A stretch of DNA of 64,000 nt from Pyrinomonadaceae bacterium (lineage in GTDB: Bacteria; Acidobacteriota; Blastocatellia; Pyrinomonadales; Pyrinomonadaceae). The stretch covers positions 248,001-312,000 of the forward strand of contig JACMJZ010000031.1 in the NCBI GenBank assembly GCA_014380365.1, in the 5' to 3' direction. Shown here one piece after another: positions 11,209 to 32,170 of this stretch; within the stretch, counting starts at the first letter, position 1; each line of letters opens with the position of its first letter. The notes under the pieces were generated by a model. That model did no database searches. It saw only the letters and a program-made list of their open reading frames with translations, and was not told the DNA's origin. The position numbers and the translations under genes are program-made.

Positions 11209-11307
11209 TGCGGCTCTGCCTATGAATCGGAGGCGTAGCCTCCATGTTTTGGGACACTTCACGGTAAGGCTGAGCCTTACCGCACTGTGCGGCGGCATAG
11301 CCGCTGC
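11209..11307 (-). repeat. Cloverleaf palindrome family, copy A (divergent, two-armed)
   Basis: A shorter member of the RAYT-associated family. Outer ends GCGGCTCTGCC and GGCGGCATAGCCGC can pair. Inside are a GGAGGC-GTA-GCCTCC hairpin (11229-11243) and CGGTAAGGC-TGA-GCCTTACCG (11262-11282), then CGCACTGTGCGGCGGC. The long middle hairpin of the full copies is absent. It lies upstream of the acyl-CoA dehydrogenase start. Confidence 0.75.
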
Positions 11308-23402: not shown

Positions 23403-23932
23403 GACTCCTCCTATTAAAGCTTGCGAGATGACTTCGCTATAGCCATTCGCGTGCCGAAGGTTCCGGCTGAACCAAGCGCGTGGGTCGCTTCGCCGAAATT
23501 CGGTAACTCCCATGGATTTGCTCATCTTTGCCATGCAGCACCATAGGAGGAACTGAATGGAGACTCGTCTATTCCTATCCTTTGAGATAGCAGTAGGTAT
23601 CTGTTCAGATAGTGGGGAGCGCAGACTGAGGCCTCATGCGGCTCAGCCGCCCACAGTGCGGAAAGCCTATGGCTTTCCGGCCAGCTGCCCTCACCAATCT
23701 TTTCCTGAGGCTCAGCCTCAGGAAAAAGGCACTTAACTACCCGGCACCGGTAAGGCAAGCCTTACCGCACTGTGCTGCGGCAAGCCGCAGGTGCAGATTG
23801 AAGGATGTAATCTCAGGTGAATCCTACCCAGTGTGCTGCGGCAGAGCGGCAACCTACTCAAACGTATTGCCCGGAACCAGGAGTGCGCGTACACTTCCGT
23901 CGCCAAGTAACTCGAGACTTCACAAGAATTGG
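23403..23932. other. Divergent intergenic region containing a cloverleaf repeat
   Basis: Between divergent genes. It holds cloverleaf copy B (23637-23790) and a diverged fragment of its outer end near 23826-23852 (GTGTGCTGCGGCAGAGCGGC). The open frame leading into the sigma54 activator runs across the repeat and is not considered coding. Promoters must lie at 23403-23636 (minus gene) and 23850-23932 (plus gene). No other gene seen. Confidence 0.6.
23637..23790 (-). repeat. Cloverleaf palindrome family, copy B
   Basis: A full-length member in inverted orientation relative to the RAYT copies. In order on plus: GCGGCTCAGCCGC / CCACAGTGCGG end, GGAAAGCC-TAT-GGCTTTCC hairpin, CCTGAGGCTCAGCCTCAGG middle hairpin, CGGTAAGGC-AA-GCCTTACCG hairpin, then CGCACTGTGCTGCGGCAAGC end. 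Confidence 0.85.
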
Positions 23933-27984: not shown

Positions 27985-28488
27985 ATGGCAGAACCATTTC
28001 TCTCTGAAATCAGAATCATGAGCTTCGGTTTCGCGCCGAAGGGCTGGGCGATGTGCAACGGTCAGTTGCTGCCCATCAACCAGAACCAGGCGCTTTTCAG
28101 TTTGCTGGGTACAACCTTCGGCGGCGACGGCCGCGTCAACTTCGCGCTACCCGATCTGCGCGGCCGGGTGCCGATTGAAGTTGGCAATGGCCACACCCTC
28201 GGCGAAAAAGGCGGCGAACAGGCGCACACGCTTTCGATGAGCGAGATGCCACAGCATGCGCACCTGGCTACGGCGACCTCGACAAACGGCGGGGTAATTA
28301 TTCCAACGGGAAACATTTTGGCAGGTGGAACTCCCCAACTCTACCATGCGCCGGACAACAACCTGACGCCGCTAAATGCGGCGACGCTAGGTAACGTCGG
28401 TGGCAGTCAGGCCCACCTGAACATGCAGCCGTTCCTGACGCTAACTTTCTGCATCGCGCTTCAGGGGATCTTCCCCAGTCCAAACTAA
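27985..28488 (+). CDS. Phage tail-collar domain protein 1 (MdpB-like)
   Basis: 167 aa with ribosome site AAGGAG. Tail-collar (PF07484-type) pattern: FLSEIRIMSFGFAPKGWAMC, NGQLLPINQNQALFSLLGTT, FGGDGRVNFALPDLRGRVPI, then the histidine motif SEMPQHAHLA and the end HLNMQPFLTLTFCIALQGIF. Related to microcystin-dependent protein MdpB and phage short-tail-fibre collars, usually forming trimers. Three tandem paralogues lie here. No signal peptide is visible, so any export would be non-classical. Not a phage gene set, as no other phage genes are near. Confidence 0.9.
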   Translation: MAEPFLSEIRIMSFGFAPKGWAMCNGQLLPINQNQALFSLLGTTFGGDGRVNFALPDLRGRVPIEVGNGHTLGEKGGEQAHTLSMSEMPQHAHLATATSTNGGVIIPTGNILAGGTPQLYHAPDNNLTPLNAATLGNVGGSQAHLNMQPFLTLTFCIALQGIFPSPN

Positions 28489-28500
28489 GGAGTCGAACTC

Positions 28501-29004
28501 ATGGCACAACCATATGTAGGTGAAATCAGAATGTTCGGTGGCAACTTCGCTCCTGCGGGTTGGATGTTTTGCGAGGGGCAGTTGCTTCCTATCTCTGAAA
28601 ACGAAACGCTCTTTCAATTGATTGGCACGACCTATGGCGGCGACGGGCAATCGACTTTTGCCCTGCCTGACTTGCGCGGTCGCCTGCCTATGCATCAGGG
28701 CAACGGCTTTATCCTCGCCGAAACGGGCGGGGCGGAAGAGATAACCCTGACAGTGAACCAAATCCCCATTCACAACCACGCGTATCTGGGAACGGAGAGC
28801 AACGCGAATGACACCAATGCAATTAATAATGTCGTCGCGCAGCCCACAGCAGGTTTTCCTTACCTGAACGCGCCGCCGCCTGTCGCCATGGGGCCGGGGA
28901 GTGTCGGTCCTACCGGCGGCAGCCAGCCGCACACAAATTTCCAGCCGTACCTTTGCGTCGACTTCATCATCTCGCTGTTCGGGCTATTCCCGTCACCGAC
29001 TTAA
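28501..29004 (+). CDS. Phage tail-collar domain protein 2 (MdpB-like)
   Basis: 167 aa, starting 12 bases after the previous stop with ribosome site TAAGGAG. The same domain: YVGEIRMFGGNFAPAGWMFC, EGQLLPISENETLFQLIGTT, YGGDGQSTFALPDLRGRLPM, NQIPIHNHAYLG, and the end NFQPYLCVDFIISLFGLFPS. The central variable segment (residues about 95-135; ANDTNAINNVVAQPTAGFPY) differs from its neighbours, as expected if this part forms the exposed binding tip. Co-transcribed with paralogues 1 and 3. Confidence 0.9.
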   Translation: MAQPYVGEIRMFGGNFAPAGWMFCEGQLLPISENETLFQLIGTTYGGDGQSTFALPDLRGRLPMHQGNGFILAETGGAEEITLTVNQIPIHNHAYLGTESNANDTNAINNVVAQPTAGFPYLNAPPPVAMGPGSVGPTGGSQPHTNFQPYLCVDFIISLFGLFPSPT

Positions 29005-29075
29005 ACGGATGATGGCCGTCGCGCCCGGTTACGTATTAATTTGATTGTTCTCAAAGCAGGCTAAGGAGAATCATT

Positions 29076-29600
29076 ATGGCAGATCCATTTGTAGCTGAAA
29101 TCAGAATCTTTCCTTTTAACTTCGCGCCCAAAGGCTGGGCGTGGTGCAACGGGCAGCTGATGCCTCTCTCCCAAAACACCGCTCTCTTCTCGCTGCTGGG
29201 GACTACCTACGGCGGCGATGGCAAGTCGACCTTTGCCTTACCTAACATGCAGGGCAACGCGCCCATGCATCCCGGACAGGGGCCTGGACTGTCGCTGCAC
29301 GATTTAGGCGAGATTGGCGGGACGGAGTTTGTCACGTTGCTCGAGTCGGAAATGCCCTTGCACGCCCACGCGCAGATGGCCAACACTACGACCGCCACCA
29401 AATCTTTGCCGACAGGCAACAGTTTTGCCAAAGGAGCGTCGATGATTCCCTACCTGGCTCCGGCAGGCGCGCCCGTGGTTAACATGGCGTTCCAAACCAT
29501 TGCACCGGCCGGCGGAAGCCTGCCGCACAACAACATGCAGCCGTACCTGACGTTTTATTTCTGCATCGCCTTGCAGGGCGTCTTCCCGCCGCGCACGTAA
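29076..29600 (+). CDS. Phage tail-collar domain protein 3 (MdpB-like)
   Basis: 174 aa with ribosome site TAAGGAGAATC. Pattern: FVAEIRIFPFNFAPKGWAWC, NGQLMPLSQNTALFSLLGTT, YGGDGKSTFALPNMQGNAPM, the His motif SEMPLHAHAQM, and the end NNMQPYLTFYFCIALQGVFP. Slightly longer variable region (PGQGPGLSLHDLGEIGGTEF). It is separated from paralogue 2 by 71 bases with no terminator. Its stop is followed at once by a GGCAGGAGCAGAC repeat. Confidence 0.9.
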   Translation: MADPFVAEIRIFPFNFAPKGWAWCNGQLMPLSQNTALFSLLGTTYGGDGKSTFALPNMQGNAPMHPGQGPGLSLHDLGEIGGTEFVTLLESEMPLHAHAQMANTTTATKSLPTGNSFAKGASMIPYLAPAGAPVVNMAFQTIAPAGGSLPHNNMQPYLTFYFCIALQGVFPPRT

Positions 29601-29650
29601 GCAGACGGCAGGAGCAGACGGCAGGAGCAGTCGGCAGGAGCAGTCGGCAG
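29601..29650 (+). repeat. Tandem GGCAGGAGCAGAC repeat
   Basis: Four copies of GCAGACGGCAGGA / GCAGTCGGCAGGA directly after tail-collar gene 3. Same family as 3024-3080. Confidence 0.8.
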
Positions 29651-30147
29651 CATGGGGCAGTGGCCCTACCGTCAGGGAGGGCGTCGCATCAGCGGCAGAA
29701 GCCGCGCGTCAGCAAGGGCGCAGTTCTTCGTCAGTCAATATGAGTCGCCCCAACAATCCGACCCTGAGAGGATTCGAGCAATCGACCCTCTCGGGGTCGA
29801 GTTGCGTTTGCAGGAACAGTGGGCAGTGGGCAGTGAGCAGTGGACAATCGACCAAAGCGGCTTGCCGCCGCACAGTGCGGTAAGGCTTGCCTTACCGGAT
29901 GCCGGGTAATTTTTGAGAACCTTTTCCTGAGGCTGAGCCTCAGGAAAGATTAGGGATGGATGGCTGGCCGGAAAGCCATAGGCTTTCCGCACTGTGCGGC
30001 GGCCGAGCCGCAGGCGCAGGTTGACTGGATGAATTTCAAGTCAACCTTACGGCGGCAAGCAGCTTACTGGCTATCTTGCATTTCTCCGTCTTACCCTCAG
30101 GAAGCAAGAGCATAGCCTTTCGATCCGAGGTTGCTTAACCTCACGGC
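29651..30147. other. Intergenic region upstream of the RAYT
   Basis: After the GGCAGGAGC repeat comes a GC-rich patch (GGGGCAGTGGCCCTACCGTC), a short CAGTGGGCAGTGAGCAGTGG stretch (29817-29842), cloverleaf copy C (29857-30016) and about 130 bases of ordinary sequence before the RAYT start. No gene seen. Confidence 0.55.
29857..30016 (+). repeat. Cloverleaf palindrome family, copy C (5' of RAYT)
   Basis: Outer ends GCGGCTTGCCGCCGCACAGT and ACTGTGCGGCGGCCGAGCCG can pair. Inside, CGGTAAGGC-TT-GCCTTACCG (29879-29898), the middle hairpin CCTGAGGCT-G-AGCCTCAGG and GGAAAGCC-ATA-GGCTTTCC form three arms. It sits 131 bases before the RAYT start. Confidence 0.9.
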
Positions 30148-30693
30148 GTGCACACCATCTCCAGAGACTCGCCCTGCTTTTACCTAACCTCGGTTGCCAA
30201 AGATAGGCTTCCAGTTTTCCGCACTAATGAAATCAAAATAATCACCTGCAACGCCCTGGATGAAGCGCGCAAGTCAGGAGAATTTGCTTTGTACGCTTAC
30301 GCTCTCATGCCGGATCATCTTCACACGATCACGGACTCGGCTCTGAGTTCGGGGGAAACGCTTCGCTTCATCAACGGAATCATTAGCCGTCGTGTGATCA
30401 ACTATCTACAGCAGCAAGGCTACGAGAGCTCACTGCAGAAGTTGAAGAGAAAAACGCAGAAGAGCGATCACCATTATTCTCTCTGGGACCATCACCCGAA
30501 TGTACGCCTTCTGCTCACGGAGAAGATGCTGATGGAGCGGGTTCACTACACGCACCAGAATCCTGTGCGCGCAGGATTGGTCGAACGCGCGGAGGATTAC
30601 CGTTGGTCGAGCGTGCGCTGCTGGAATGGAAATCCGCTGGAGGATGAGCCGCTGCTGATGGATCTTGATCTCATCAAGTGGAGGCGGAGTTGA
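30148..30693 (+). CDS. REP-associated tyrosine transposase (RAYT), IS200-like
   Basis: 181 aa from a GTG start at 30148; a single-copy Y1 HUH-type transposase domain. The HUH-like motif is YALMPDHLHTI (about residues 51-61), with His57 and His59 positions as DHLH. The candidate nucleophile Tyr lies in the helix VHYTHQNPVRAGLVERAEDY, the most recognisable RAYT signature, followed by RWSSVRCWNG. It lacks a TnpB partner and IS200 ends. Instead, two full copies of the cloverleaf palindrome flank it in the same orientation, as REPs flank RAYTs. The expected function is single-stranded cleavage and mobilisation or maintenance of those palindromes. Confidence 0.88.
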   Translation: MHTISRDSPCFYLTSVAKDRLPVFRTNEIKIITCNALDEARKSGEFALYAYALMPDHLHTITDSALSSGETLRFINGIISRRVINYLQQQGYESSLQKLKRKTQKSDHHYSLWDHHPNVRLLLTEKMLMERVHYTHQNPVRAGLVERAEDYRWSSVRCWNGNPLEDEPLLMDLDLIKWRRS

Positions 30694-30753
30694 GTCCTGA
30701 ACCGTGCGGGTCTGCGGAAAGGCCCTTTCCACGGTGCCATTCAATCAACCAAC

Positions 30754-30910
30754 GCGGCTTGCCGCCGCACAGTGCGGTAAGGCTTGCCTTACCGTCACCG
30801 AAGTAAATTAAGAATCTTTCCTGAGGCTGAGCCTCAGGAAAGATTTGGAGATGGGTAGCTGGCCGGAAAGCCATAGGCTTTCCGCACTGTGCGGCGGCAA
30901 GCCGCAGGCG
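30754..30910 (+). repeat. Cloverleaf palindrome family, copy D (3' of RAYT)
   Basis: Outer ends GCGGCTTGCCGCCGCACAGT and ACTGTGCGGCGGCAAGCCGC are a nearly perfect inverted repeat. Arms: CGGTAAGGC-TT-GCCTTACCG, AATCTTTCCTGAGGCT-G-AGCC... (16-bp stem, perfect), GGAAAGCC-ATA-GGCTTTCC. It begins 60 bases after the RAYT stop and is almost identical to copy E. Confidence 0.9.
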
Positions 30911-31315
30911 CGGATTGAACCACGTCTGGCGCAGAAAGTCCTGCATAGGCATGGCAAGAATCTGCGCGCCATTGACAACACTCTGCGCCTGGAGAGGAAG
31001 AGTCGGCGCATCGATGGGATGAATCTGCGCATCGATGAGATGATACTGCGCACGGATGGGATGAATCTGCGTACTGATGAGATGAAGCTGCCCATGGGAG
31101 GGATGAGACTGCGCACCGATGGGATAAAACTGCGCGTGCGTGGGATAAAGCAGCCCACGATTCGCGTTGGTAAATCCTAATCCCGGAAGAGAATGCCCAC
31201 GCGTGAGTTTTATCTAACCAACCTATTGAAGTCTCTATTCGTCCGGCGTAATATCGGCTCGTTCCTCGCACGTTCCTGACTCCCAACCCAGCCAAAAAAG
31301 AAGGAGCATACTCAA
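30911..31315. other. Intergenic region with a 21-base tandem repeat
   Basis: Contains the ten-unit tandem repeat (30959-31168) and then about 145 bases leading to the ribosome site of the next gene. An open frame runs from inside cloverleaf copy D through the repeat to 31180, but it has no independent start codon; I regard it as a pseudogene or non-coding. Confidence 0.5.
30959..31168 (+). repeat. Ten-unit 21-base tandem repeat with open 7-residue period
   Basis: Units of the form AAT CTG CGC ATC GAT GAG ATG repeat ten times without frame loss. In the plus frame they read NLRIDEM / ILRTDGM / NLRTDEM / KLPMGGM / RLRTDGI and so on. The first two and last units are the most diverged. Non-synonymous changes are common. 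Confidence 0.85.
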
Positions 31316-31678
31316 ATGGCAAGAAACGAAACACGAAGACTCAAGCCCGCACAAATCCAACTGGATATCGAAAGCTACGACGCTTTGCTGGCTACGGCAG
31401 ACTATGCACCCGCAAACCCCGCGTACTCAAAAGAGAATGCCACAGCCAGTCGCACTGGAATGGGTACCTCGCAAGCCGAAGAAACCCAGGCTGATGCGCT
31501 GGCAGCCGCTAAGCGCGACACCGCGGTCGCGAAGGAATGGGAATTTCACAATCTGATACTAGGAGTTAAAAATCAGATCGTGGCCCAGTTTGGCCTCGAC
31601 TCAAACGAAGCACAGGCGATTGGACTGAAGAAGAAATCCGAGTACAAGACACGTTCCAAGAAGACCCCGAAGTCATGA
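31316..31678 (+). CDS. Conserved-looking hypothetical protein, 120 aa
   Basis: A strong ribosome site (GAAGGAG) precedes the ATG. The protein is hydrophilic and highly charged, without a signal or membrane segment: LKPAQIQLDIESYDALLATA, then a low-complexity stretch (NPAYSKENATASRTGMGTSQ), then a helical part (AVAKEWEFHNLILGVKNQIV) and a basic tail (LKKKSEYKTRSKKTPKS). I do not recognise the family. The helix-rich C-terminal portion looks conserved and structured. Flanked by cloverleaf copies D and E. It might relate to the tail-collar cluster upstream, but that is positional only. Confidence 0.65.
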   Translation: MARNETRRLKPAQIQLDIESYDALLATADYAPANPAYSKENATASRTGMGTSQAEETQADALAAAKRDTAVAKEWEFHNLILGVKNQIVAQFGLDSNEAQAIGLKKKSEYKTRSKKTPKS

Positions 31679-32170
31679 GGCTGACCTGCGGCTCTGCCGC
31701 CGCACAGTGCGGTAAGGCTTGCCTTACCGTCACCGAGGTAAATTAAGAATCTTTCCTGAGGCTGAGCCTCAGGAAAGATTTGGAGATGGGTAGCTGGCCG
31801 GAAAGCCATAGGCTTTCCGCACTGTGCGGCGGCAAGCCGCAGGCGTAGGTTGAACGATTGCAGCCCGCCGCTGCTCGTATTTATCCTTTCACTGCCGACT
31901 GCCGACTGCCGGACTGACCACCGCCCACCGCCCACTGTCCCCTCCATACTTATTGACGCGTGTTGCAATCCTGTAATATTCTTACGTCGCCACAATTAGG
32001 GAGTTGAGCCGCAGCGACGCACGTGCCTCGCCGCTCCTCGAGAGGTTGCCGCGAGATTCCTGTTTCTTTGCATCGTTATTAACGAATCACGAACGGACAT
32101 CCGGCTTAACTCGCGACCGACACGTTAAGACTTCAACACTTCCAACTTTTCCAGGAATAAGGATCACCCC
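31679..32170. other. Intergenic region before the giant exoprotein gene
   Basis: Cloverleaf copy E (31686-31845), then CTGCCGACTGCCGACTGCC / CCACCGCCCACCGCCCACTG words (31893-31946), then about 220 bases of unique sequence with the likely promoter and leader of the exoprotein gene and the ribosome site AATAAGGATC. No gene seen. Confidence 0.55.
31686..31845 (+). repeat. Cloverleaf palindrome family, copy E
   Basis: Outer ends CTGCGGCTCTGCCGCCGCAC and GTGCGGCGGCAAGCCGCAG pair over about 26 bases. Three internal hairpins are as in copy D, with the same linker sequences (GTCACCGAGGTAAATTAAG and TGGAGATGGGTAGCTGGCC), showing recent common origin. Confidence 0.92.

Follow-up and report, generated by a model that had tools for sequence, protein, structure and literature searches.

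Hairpin repeats on both sides of a RAYT transposase gene in Pyrinomonadaceae: probable miniatures of a RAYT-bearing element

Few bacterial repeats are as common as REPs and REPINs, whose origin from IS200-like elements is an open question. This question is raised by a locus within a stretch of 64,000 nucleotides (hereafter the window) from the genome of a Pyrinomonadaceae bacterium (G000; a 4.98 Mb draft in 34 contigs, 95% complete), where a single gene for a RAYT-type Y1/HUH transposase lies between two copies of a palindromic repeat. What are these repeats, and how are they related to the gene that they enclose? In our judgement they are probably non-autonomous miniatures, derived by gene deletion from an autonomous RAYT element and moved in trans by the RAYT between them. 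If true, this would reveal the way in which a common type of bacterial repeat comes about.

The gene itself (30148-30693, + strand) had been recognized correctly in a preliminary description of the window. The open reading frame starts with GTG, encodes 181 aa including the motifs MPDHLH and HYTHQNPVRAG, and matches the NCBIfam model NF047646, 'REP-associated tyrosine transposase', with 79.3 bits (E 2.5e-22; cut-off 80) and Pfam Y1_Tnp with 21.8 bits (cut-off 23). NF047646 also matches all 14 aligned members of the clade (E <= 0.001), in which the HUH residues H57 and H59, the catalytic Y134 and residues N138 and P139 of the Y-x-x-x-N-P motif are invariant. The presence of DHLH together with Y-x-HQNP combines features listed for the published subclasses 2.2 and 2.6. 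According to the AlphaFold2 model (pLDDT 88.5), the fold is of the TnpAREP type: the top Foldseek match is 4er8_A (E 3.6e-6, TM 0.62/0.67), a complex of E. coli TnpAREP with a REP hairpin according to the entry title, and further matches include 2xm3 and 2vju. The same entry ranks first when the clade profile is compared with the PDB (E 3.3e-6). The closest named relatives of the transposase occur in Blastocatellia/Pyrinomonadaceae and other Acidobacteriota MAGs; with regard to a phage origin, 50,697 phage records contained no match. A genome search found only this one RAYT gene in G000, and the several near-identical copies per genome that are a trait of IS200/IS605 were not seen. Relative to the G012 RAYT, dN/dS is low (0.089), with a dS of 1.78 that is near saturation, dS of the other six pairs being not computable. 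Directly 5' of the start codon lies a hairpin GAGGTT/AACCTC (30127-30142, + strand), possibly what is left of the C1 hairpin found ahead of the gene in autonomous relatives; 3' of the gene, a degenerate REP-like hairpin, GCGGAAAGGCCCTTTCC (30714-30730, + strand; weak REP profile match, E 0.59), is a possible remnant of the right end of the RAYT itself.

One element on each side of the gene, in the same orientation, had been described beforehand. Both are real, copy 1 at 29857-30011 and copy 2 at 30754-30905 (both + strand), but copy 3 (31688-31840, + strand; 97% identity to copy 2), copy 4 (23638-23788, - strand) and a half element (11263-11302, - strand) had been missed. The half element consists of one REP and the adjoining centre hairpin, and its partner REP was not found. 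Copies 1 and 2 belong to a short type, composed of REP-L, one centre hairpin and REP-R. In copy 2, all on the + strand, the REP-L hairpin CGGTAAGGC/GCCTTACCG occupies 30775-30794, the centre hairpin 30813-30845 and the REP-R hairpin CGGAAAGCC/GGCTTTCCG 30864-30884; among the copies the REP hairpins covary, and the centre hairpin may be read as two hairpins, C1 and C2, fused through deletion.

The surroundings contain further repeats and genes. Three phage-tail-collar-type genes (two of them tested against Pfam) form an array at 27985-29600, and past the third there is a 13-bp tandem repeat, AGCAGACGGCAGG, at 29600-29650, with stretches 92-94% alike at other places in G006 and G007. Past copy 2, gatgggatgaatctgcgca-like units of roughly 24 bp form a degenerate tandem repeat, visible by eye, at 30970-31165. 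A 120-aa open reading frame between copies 2 and 3 (31316-31678) is without an NCBIfam match, and its Pfam matches are weak and fall short of the cut-off.

The element is not restricted to the window. The pattern GCCGCACAGTGCGG, with at most 2 mismatches, is found at 97+107 places in G000 versus 30+21 for a reversed control. From the 63 candidate places 40 were scored, giving 40 merged places to which the core pattern added more; genome counts are lower bounds. A 40-nt REP profile, run on 47 genome regions and two window stretches, gave 86 matches above 25 bits, 84 of which form inverted pairs, so that the dispersed unit is an inverted REP pair, as in a REPIN. In total, at least 42 whole elements of 143-239 nt are present, each made up of two inverted 40-nt REPs around centre hairpins; the same regions hold two half elements by the REP profile, and at seven further places there are simple hairpins of 33 nt built from the outer arms alone. 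By a strict definition, 15 of the 42 copies are of the short type with one fused centre hairpin, and only to these do the three internal hairpins of the preliminary description apply; the other 27 are of a long type, mostly with four internal hairpins. A looser rule gives one centre hairpin in 17, two or more in 24 and none in one. Similarity is higher among short copies (median 0.82; at least 0.85 in 35 of 105 pairs) than among long ones (median 0.77; at least 0.85 in 4 of 351 pairs). Since the short copies are more alike and also bracket the RAYT, the short subfamily looks most recently active, as judged from these similarities. In the consensus of the 84 REPs, CAGTG precedes CGGAAAGGC and the GT[AG]G tag directly 5' of the hairpin is absent; many relatives have TGTGC or TGTGA before the hairpin. 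G000 also contains a half element of the CTTCTGTG REP type (L329 about 1501-1581; G000:C8:178813-178893), which might go back to a second RAYT lineage.

Which part of this element is supported as a structure? Folded as single-stranded DNA with short flanks, copy 1 reaches -57.8 kcal/mol (z -7.7) and copy 2 -64.7 kcal/mol (z -10.9), with none of 200 shuffles as good in either case; the stable fold that had been proposed is therefore found. Base-pair changes tell the hairpins and the outer stem apart. Among 84 REPs, pair 24/38 of the hairpin is formed by A-T in 52 cases and by T-A in 32; for pair 28/34 the counts are 65 G-C, 18 C-G and one other combination. Each of the eight REP hairpin pairs has at most three non-Watson-Crick cells, and their total of 8 (1 G-T, 4 A-C) is too small to separate RNA from DNA. 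In 66 centre hairpins the third pair out is T-A in 31, G-C in 11, C-G in 7 and A-T in 1, and unpaired in 16. The outer arms, on the other hand, are conserved, and arms of the same copy match hardly better than arms from different copies (0.934 versus 0.928 with shuffled partners; 116 of 2000 shuffles as high). Without two loop positions 1230 of 2000 shuffles are as high, and with these two positions alone 40 of 2000. The complementary outer ends noted beforehand do pair, but without clear covariation, and they pair because the two ends are inverted copies of one 40-nt REP. The hairpins are therefore backed as structures and the cloverleaf unit is not; the outer stem is best read as terminal inverted repeats. 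A large four-stem substrate, tried as a candidate, was rejected as the best reading on the match of the outer arms. The proposal of a new class of large four-stem REPs is not supported, given that covariation is seen in a small hairpin of the ordinary kind and that relatives have these ends and centre hairpins directly around the RAYT gene.

This last observation comes from 35 distinct open reading frames of 160-240 aa, kept from a sample of the 33 nearest loci (L235-L267) of 80 in a scan of named genomes, eight further loci and the window. Inverted repeats across the frame (score at least 40; shuffle maxima 20-33) accompany 27 of the 35 RAYTs. In 20 of the 35 the terminal repeats lie at most 100 nt from the start and at most 60 nt from the stop, three have a whole element on each side (the window, G012 C255 and L245, which is G009 C154) and four have another layout; in the remaining eight none was detected. 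The 20 include L258, which lacks the usual ATG, has a frameshift near its end and is probably a pseudogene; the eight include L263 and L266, doubtful genes with long branches. Within L235-L267 alone, 23 of 33 loci score 45-116, again with shuffle maxima of 20-33, and the remaining 10 score 16-35.

The gene-bearing layout in these Blastocatellia relatives is REP, hairpin, RAYT, hairpin, REP. A typical end begins with the mini-hairpin CGGCTnnGCCG, followed by a few bases, TGTG or similar and the REP hairpin CGGAAAGGCTnnGCCTTTCCG, and continues inward with about 20-30 nt, the hairpin GAGGCTnnGCCTC and the start codon. In the nearest relative with this layout (L235, protein 69% identical) the ends, TGCGGCTCTGCCGCCGCACATGGCGGTAAGG...GGAGGCTATGCCTCC, are almost the REP and C hairpin of the window, and the long miniature corresponds to a typical gene-bearing unit minus the gene. 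CTTCCGTG-core miniatures, one each in G004 and G006, agree in core and in the order of their modules with the RAYT-bearing elements in G001 and G010, and almost so with that in G012 C243. With the RAYT of relatives lying directly between such ends and centre hairpins, the repeat reads as a deletion derivative of an autonomous element. The repeats resemble MITEs in being 143-239 nt long and non-coding and in having ends and centre hairpins in common with RAYT-bearing units of relatives, with the caveat that the only RAYT of the window genome stands outside such ends. In several relatives the C1 stem holds an AGGAGG-like ribosome-binding site just before the ATG, which suggests, by analogy, a translational damping like that reported for IS200.

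Two observations were made at the margins of this sample. Of ten RAYT-like loci at 26-35% identity (L094, L095, L097-L104), all except L098 and L102 (that is, L094, L095, L097, L099, L100, L101, L103 and L104) have terminal inverted repeats well above shuffles, and the layout is thus not confined to the clade of the window RAYT. Tandem direct arrays of single REP units of about 62-66 nt adjoin RAYT genes in G017 and G031 (L107 1208-1451, L088 2131-2572).

Presence and absence at orthologous sites add a historical dimension. Site A is a divergent gene pair, of which the downstream gene (at least 64% identity) was found in 16 loci and the upstream gene as well in 12. Four of these 12 have a RAYT-bearing element, the gene being open in G004, interrupted by a stop codon in G012 and frameshifted in G001 and G010; seven (G000, G003, G006, G007, G011, G013 and G015) have no element, as judged by eye. 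In G009 an internally deleted copy is present: RAYT codons 1-27 run straight into the final bases of the gene, the two REPs and the two C hairpins are retained, and the deletion ends share a few bases. Aligned with its flanks, this copy is identical to G001 in 441 of 526 shared columns and to G010 in 436 of 522. The element of G004 is of another REP type and stands at a different base from that of G012, indicating that site A was entered more than once or that the element was replaced.

At site B, both G012 and G009 have a RAYT remnant in the interval between the two genes of the site, in opposite orientation (L185, L192); this could reflect independent insertion or an inversion between the inverted ends. 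By eye, no element of this type was seen there in G003, G004, G006, G007, G011 and G015; both genes also occur in G005, G016 and G019, outside the by-eye comparison. G006 has another palindromic insert at this site (L187 about 1010-1260), with GGGGGCATGCCCCC-type ends that look like the inverted repeats on either side of more distant RAYTs (L100, L101), possibly a second MITE family. Site C is only partly informative, with an intact copy in G013, a partial one in G001 and a left REP with 22 RAYT codons in G007. The tail-collar array before the window RAYT is conserved in G017 and G015, where the next 1.2-1.5 kb contain no REP. The colinear locus of G006 showed neither a counterpart of copy 4 nor any REP. 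In G012 the gene that adjoins copy 4 has an element upstream, about 650 bp further away. Neither base-exact joints nor target duplications were obtained for sites A, B and C, copy 4 or the RAYT locus, the intergenic DNA being too diverged for the exact insertion point to be resolved. No transposition, excision or circle was seen in the sequence data, which give presence/absence differences only; from these differences, it may be supposed that the element has transposed.

The genomic setting of the RAYTs matters for the main alternative, the classical REPtron/REPIN, which would have a domesticated, vertically inherited RAYT, with the REP pairs being secondary insertions beside the gene and not transposon ends. 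We consider this unlikely, although published RAYTs are single-copy and vertically inherited (PMC8049555) and apparently cannot mobilise themselves (PMC3116915), as described in the parts of these papers used here, and although the single RAYT copy in G000, its low dN/dS and the whole elements on both sides of the RAYT in the window, G012 and G009 all agree with it. Matching inverted ends are close by in 20 of 35 RAYTs, with a centre hairpin adjoining the start codon in many, and 4 of the 12 genomes compared at site A have the entire REP-to-REP unit while 7 lack it. The alternative is also at odds with the two or more different RAYTs in several genomes (those of G012 are 78, 58, 58, 48 and 60% identical to the query, each versus the query) and with the flanks of 28 RAYT loci, about 2 kb or less, among which only three sets have neighbouring genes in common; most relatives are MAGs with flanks hidden by contig ends. 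Between the window and the G012 RAYT loci no common neighbouring genes were found in the stretches compared, and the spacers between RAYT and miniatures do not align. On this comparison, a composite MITE-RAYT-MITE unit that travels in one piece is only a candidate.

The distribution over genomes links the repeat with this RAYT clade. Among 59 genomes including G000, a clade RAYT, assigned by hand (at least 43% identity, fragments in G001 and G002 counted), is present in 17 and the element in 16, the element calls in G008, G023 and G027 resting on a single weak match each. Both occur in 15, RAYT only in two (G003, G033), the element only in one (G006) and neither in 41 (Fisher p 5e-11, for 59 related genomes). 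In the same order, the counts are 11/1/1/3 within the genus (16 genomes, p 0.027) and 4/1/0/38 outside it (43 genomes, p 4e-5). The co-occurrence is partly circular, because the RAYT's own ends match the element query. The view of the preliminary description that this is a RAYT system with a cognate repeat is upheld by a multi-copy element, a single-copy RAYT and the co-occurrence in these 59 genomes. Its expectation that the element would occur elsewhere in its own genome was borne out by the copies counted in G000, but the expected dependence on the RAYT fails for the window's REP type in G006, which is 97% complete and has elements and no RAYT. G003's own REP type, present in 14 of 59 genomes and absent from the window genome, also occurs in G011 and G015 (87 and 83% complete), neither of which has a RAYT match, so that orphan repeats may exist; it occurs once in G005, which has only a distant RAYT match. 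Over 22 loci, the distances between RAYTs correlate with those between REPs (Mantel r 0.36, 0 of 5000 permutations). RAYT layout, placed on an unrooted tree, requires 10 changes, and 92 of 500 shuffles are as low; with a layout so scattered and a tree without a root, the direction from autonomous element to REPtron is one that we infer.

The co-occurrence also bears on a second alternative, namely that the repeats are structural RNA or DNA elements, such as terminators or mRNA stabilisers, selected for their fold, and that the link with the RAYT is incidental. By a crude codon model, 35 of the 42 copies lie outside open reading frames called coding (in 6 of the 35 one side is undetermined), with 5 between convergent and 20 between same-strand genes, and this placement, like the very stable folds of copies 1 and 2, would suit such a role. 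The other seven lie inside called frames, five of which begin at most 90 nt from the element and are probably over-long start calls. Against such a role stand the co-occurrence with the RAYT clade and the RAYT of relatives within the same ends; no Rfam family matched the window at the gathering cut-off, and copy 4 was not found in the colinear G006 locus. We hold this explanation to be very improbable. Slightly less probable still is that some unrelated transposase, one recognising inverted ends, moves the repeats as MITEs, for while short inverted ends are typical of many MITEs, 20 of 35 RAYTs are directly between such ends and REP type tracks RAYT type.

Returning to deletion from a RAYT element as the preferred explanation, the following succession is proposed. 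The ancestor would have been an autonomous element of about 700 bp, arranged as REP-L, C1, RAYT gene, C2 and REP-R. Deletion of the gene would yield the long type of about 160 bp with two centre hairpins, and fusion of C1 and C2 the short type of about 148 bp with one; the 33-nt simple hairpins could represent the last step. In the window lineage, the RAYT would have parted from its own ends and now be located, REPtron-like, between two whole miniatures. Enzymes of this class act on single-stranded hairpins, as known for IS608 and TnpAREP. The HUH/Y1 enzyme, with H57, H59 and Y134, may thus bind the hairpins on single-stranded DNA, most of them with GGC-nn-GCC-type tips, and may cut near the REP foot at both ends, the strand moving as in IS608. 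Whatever DNA lies between two inverted REPs might then be mobile, with or without a gene, and miniatures would come to outnumber the gene-bearing form, the gene persisting only where it is selected. A further step is to regard this as the birth of a RAYT/REPIN system in progress, in which miniatures take over and the gene leaves its own ends in at least two lineages, REPINs at large being the MITEs of lost autonomous RAYT elements. The RAYT is found outside its own ends in two lineages, the window plus G012 and G009 C154; we put this wider reading forward tentatively, with somewhat more doubt than conviction.

How does this family compare with known systems? With IS200/IS605 elements such as IS608 and ISDra2 it has in common the Y1/HUH fold, hairpins at both ends and, in relatives, a single-gene element; it differs in that the ends are inverted repeats of one REP and that the tyrosine motif is Y-x-x-x-N-P (class 2, the RAYT side) and not Y-x-x-x-Q. 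The class 3 TnpA-Y1 proteins, proposed as IS/REPtron intermediates with Acidobacteria among their hosts, are similar in the atypical secondary structures that flank the gene and in having dispersed copies, whereas their motif ends in EQ instead of NP, according to the portion of PMC6006769 considered. REPIN/RAYT systems, as far as they are covered in the portions considered of Bertels and Rainey 2011 (PMC3116915) and PMC8049555, likewise have two inverted REPs with a variable spacer in many, mostly extragenic copies and one RAYT flanked by copies; here, in contrast, there is no GTAG foot, the centre hairpins recur, the RAYT of relatives is inside the REP ends and some genomes have several different RAYTs.

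The closest resemblance is to the TIRYTs (TIR-associated tyrosine transposases), a name given to RAYT genes flanked by TIRs, in Acidobacteria among others (Di Nocera et al. 2013, PMC3733652). In the part of that paper considered, some TIRs are self-complementary, copies are dispersed singly, as dimers or grouped, and many TIRs have a GGGGWSAS motif in common. As in these TIRtrons, a RAYT-like Y1 gene is flanked by TIRs unrelated to GTAG REPs in 27 of 35 RAYTs here; for the window RAYT the repeats on either side are whole elements, and its own TIRs are missing or degenerate. The comparison concerns layout and repeats. The TIR here is a chain of two to four hairpins, and the dispersed dimers have centre hairpins of the kind seen in the gene-bearing unit, to which the internally deleted copy links them; dimers as deletion derivatives are not described in the part of PMC3733652 considered. 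Nor was the deletion reading found in the corresponding parts of PMC6006769, PMC8049555, PMC3116915 and PMC8450116, and the combination of RAYT, MITE and internal deletion was not met in the open-access literature searched, most subscription journals and preprints being outside its scope. With the gene inside its ends, cut out or alone in close relatives, partly at orthologous sites, the origin of REPINs becomes testable, and the family of the window joins TIR-bounded RAYT units, deletion miniatures and a REPtron-like end state.
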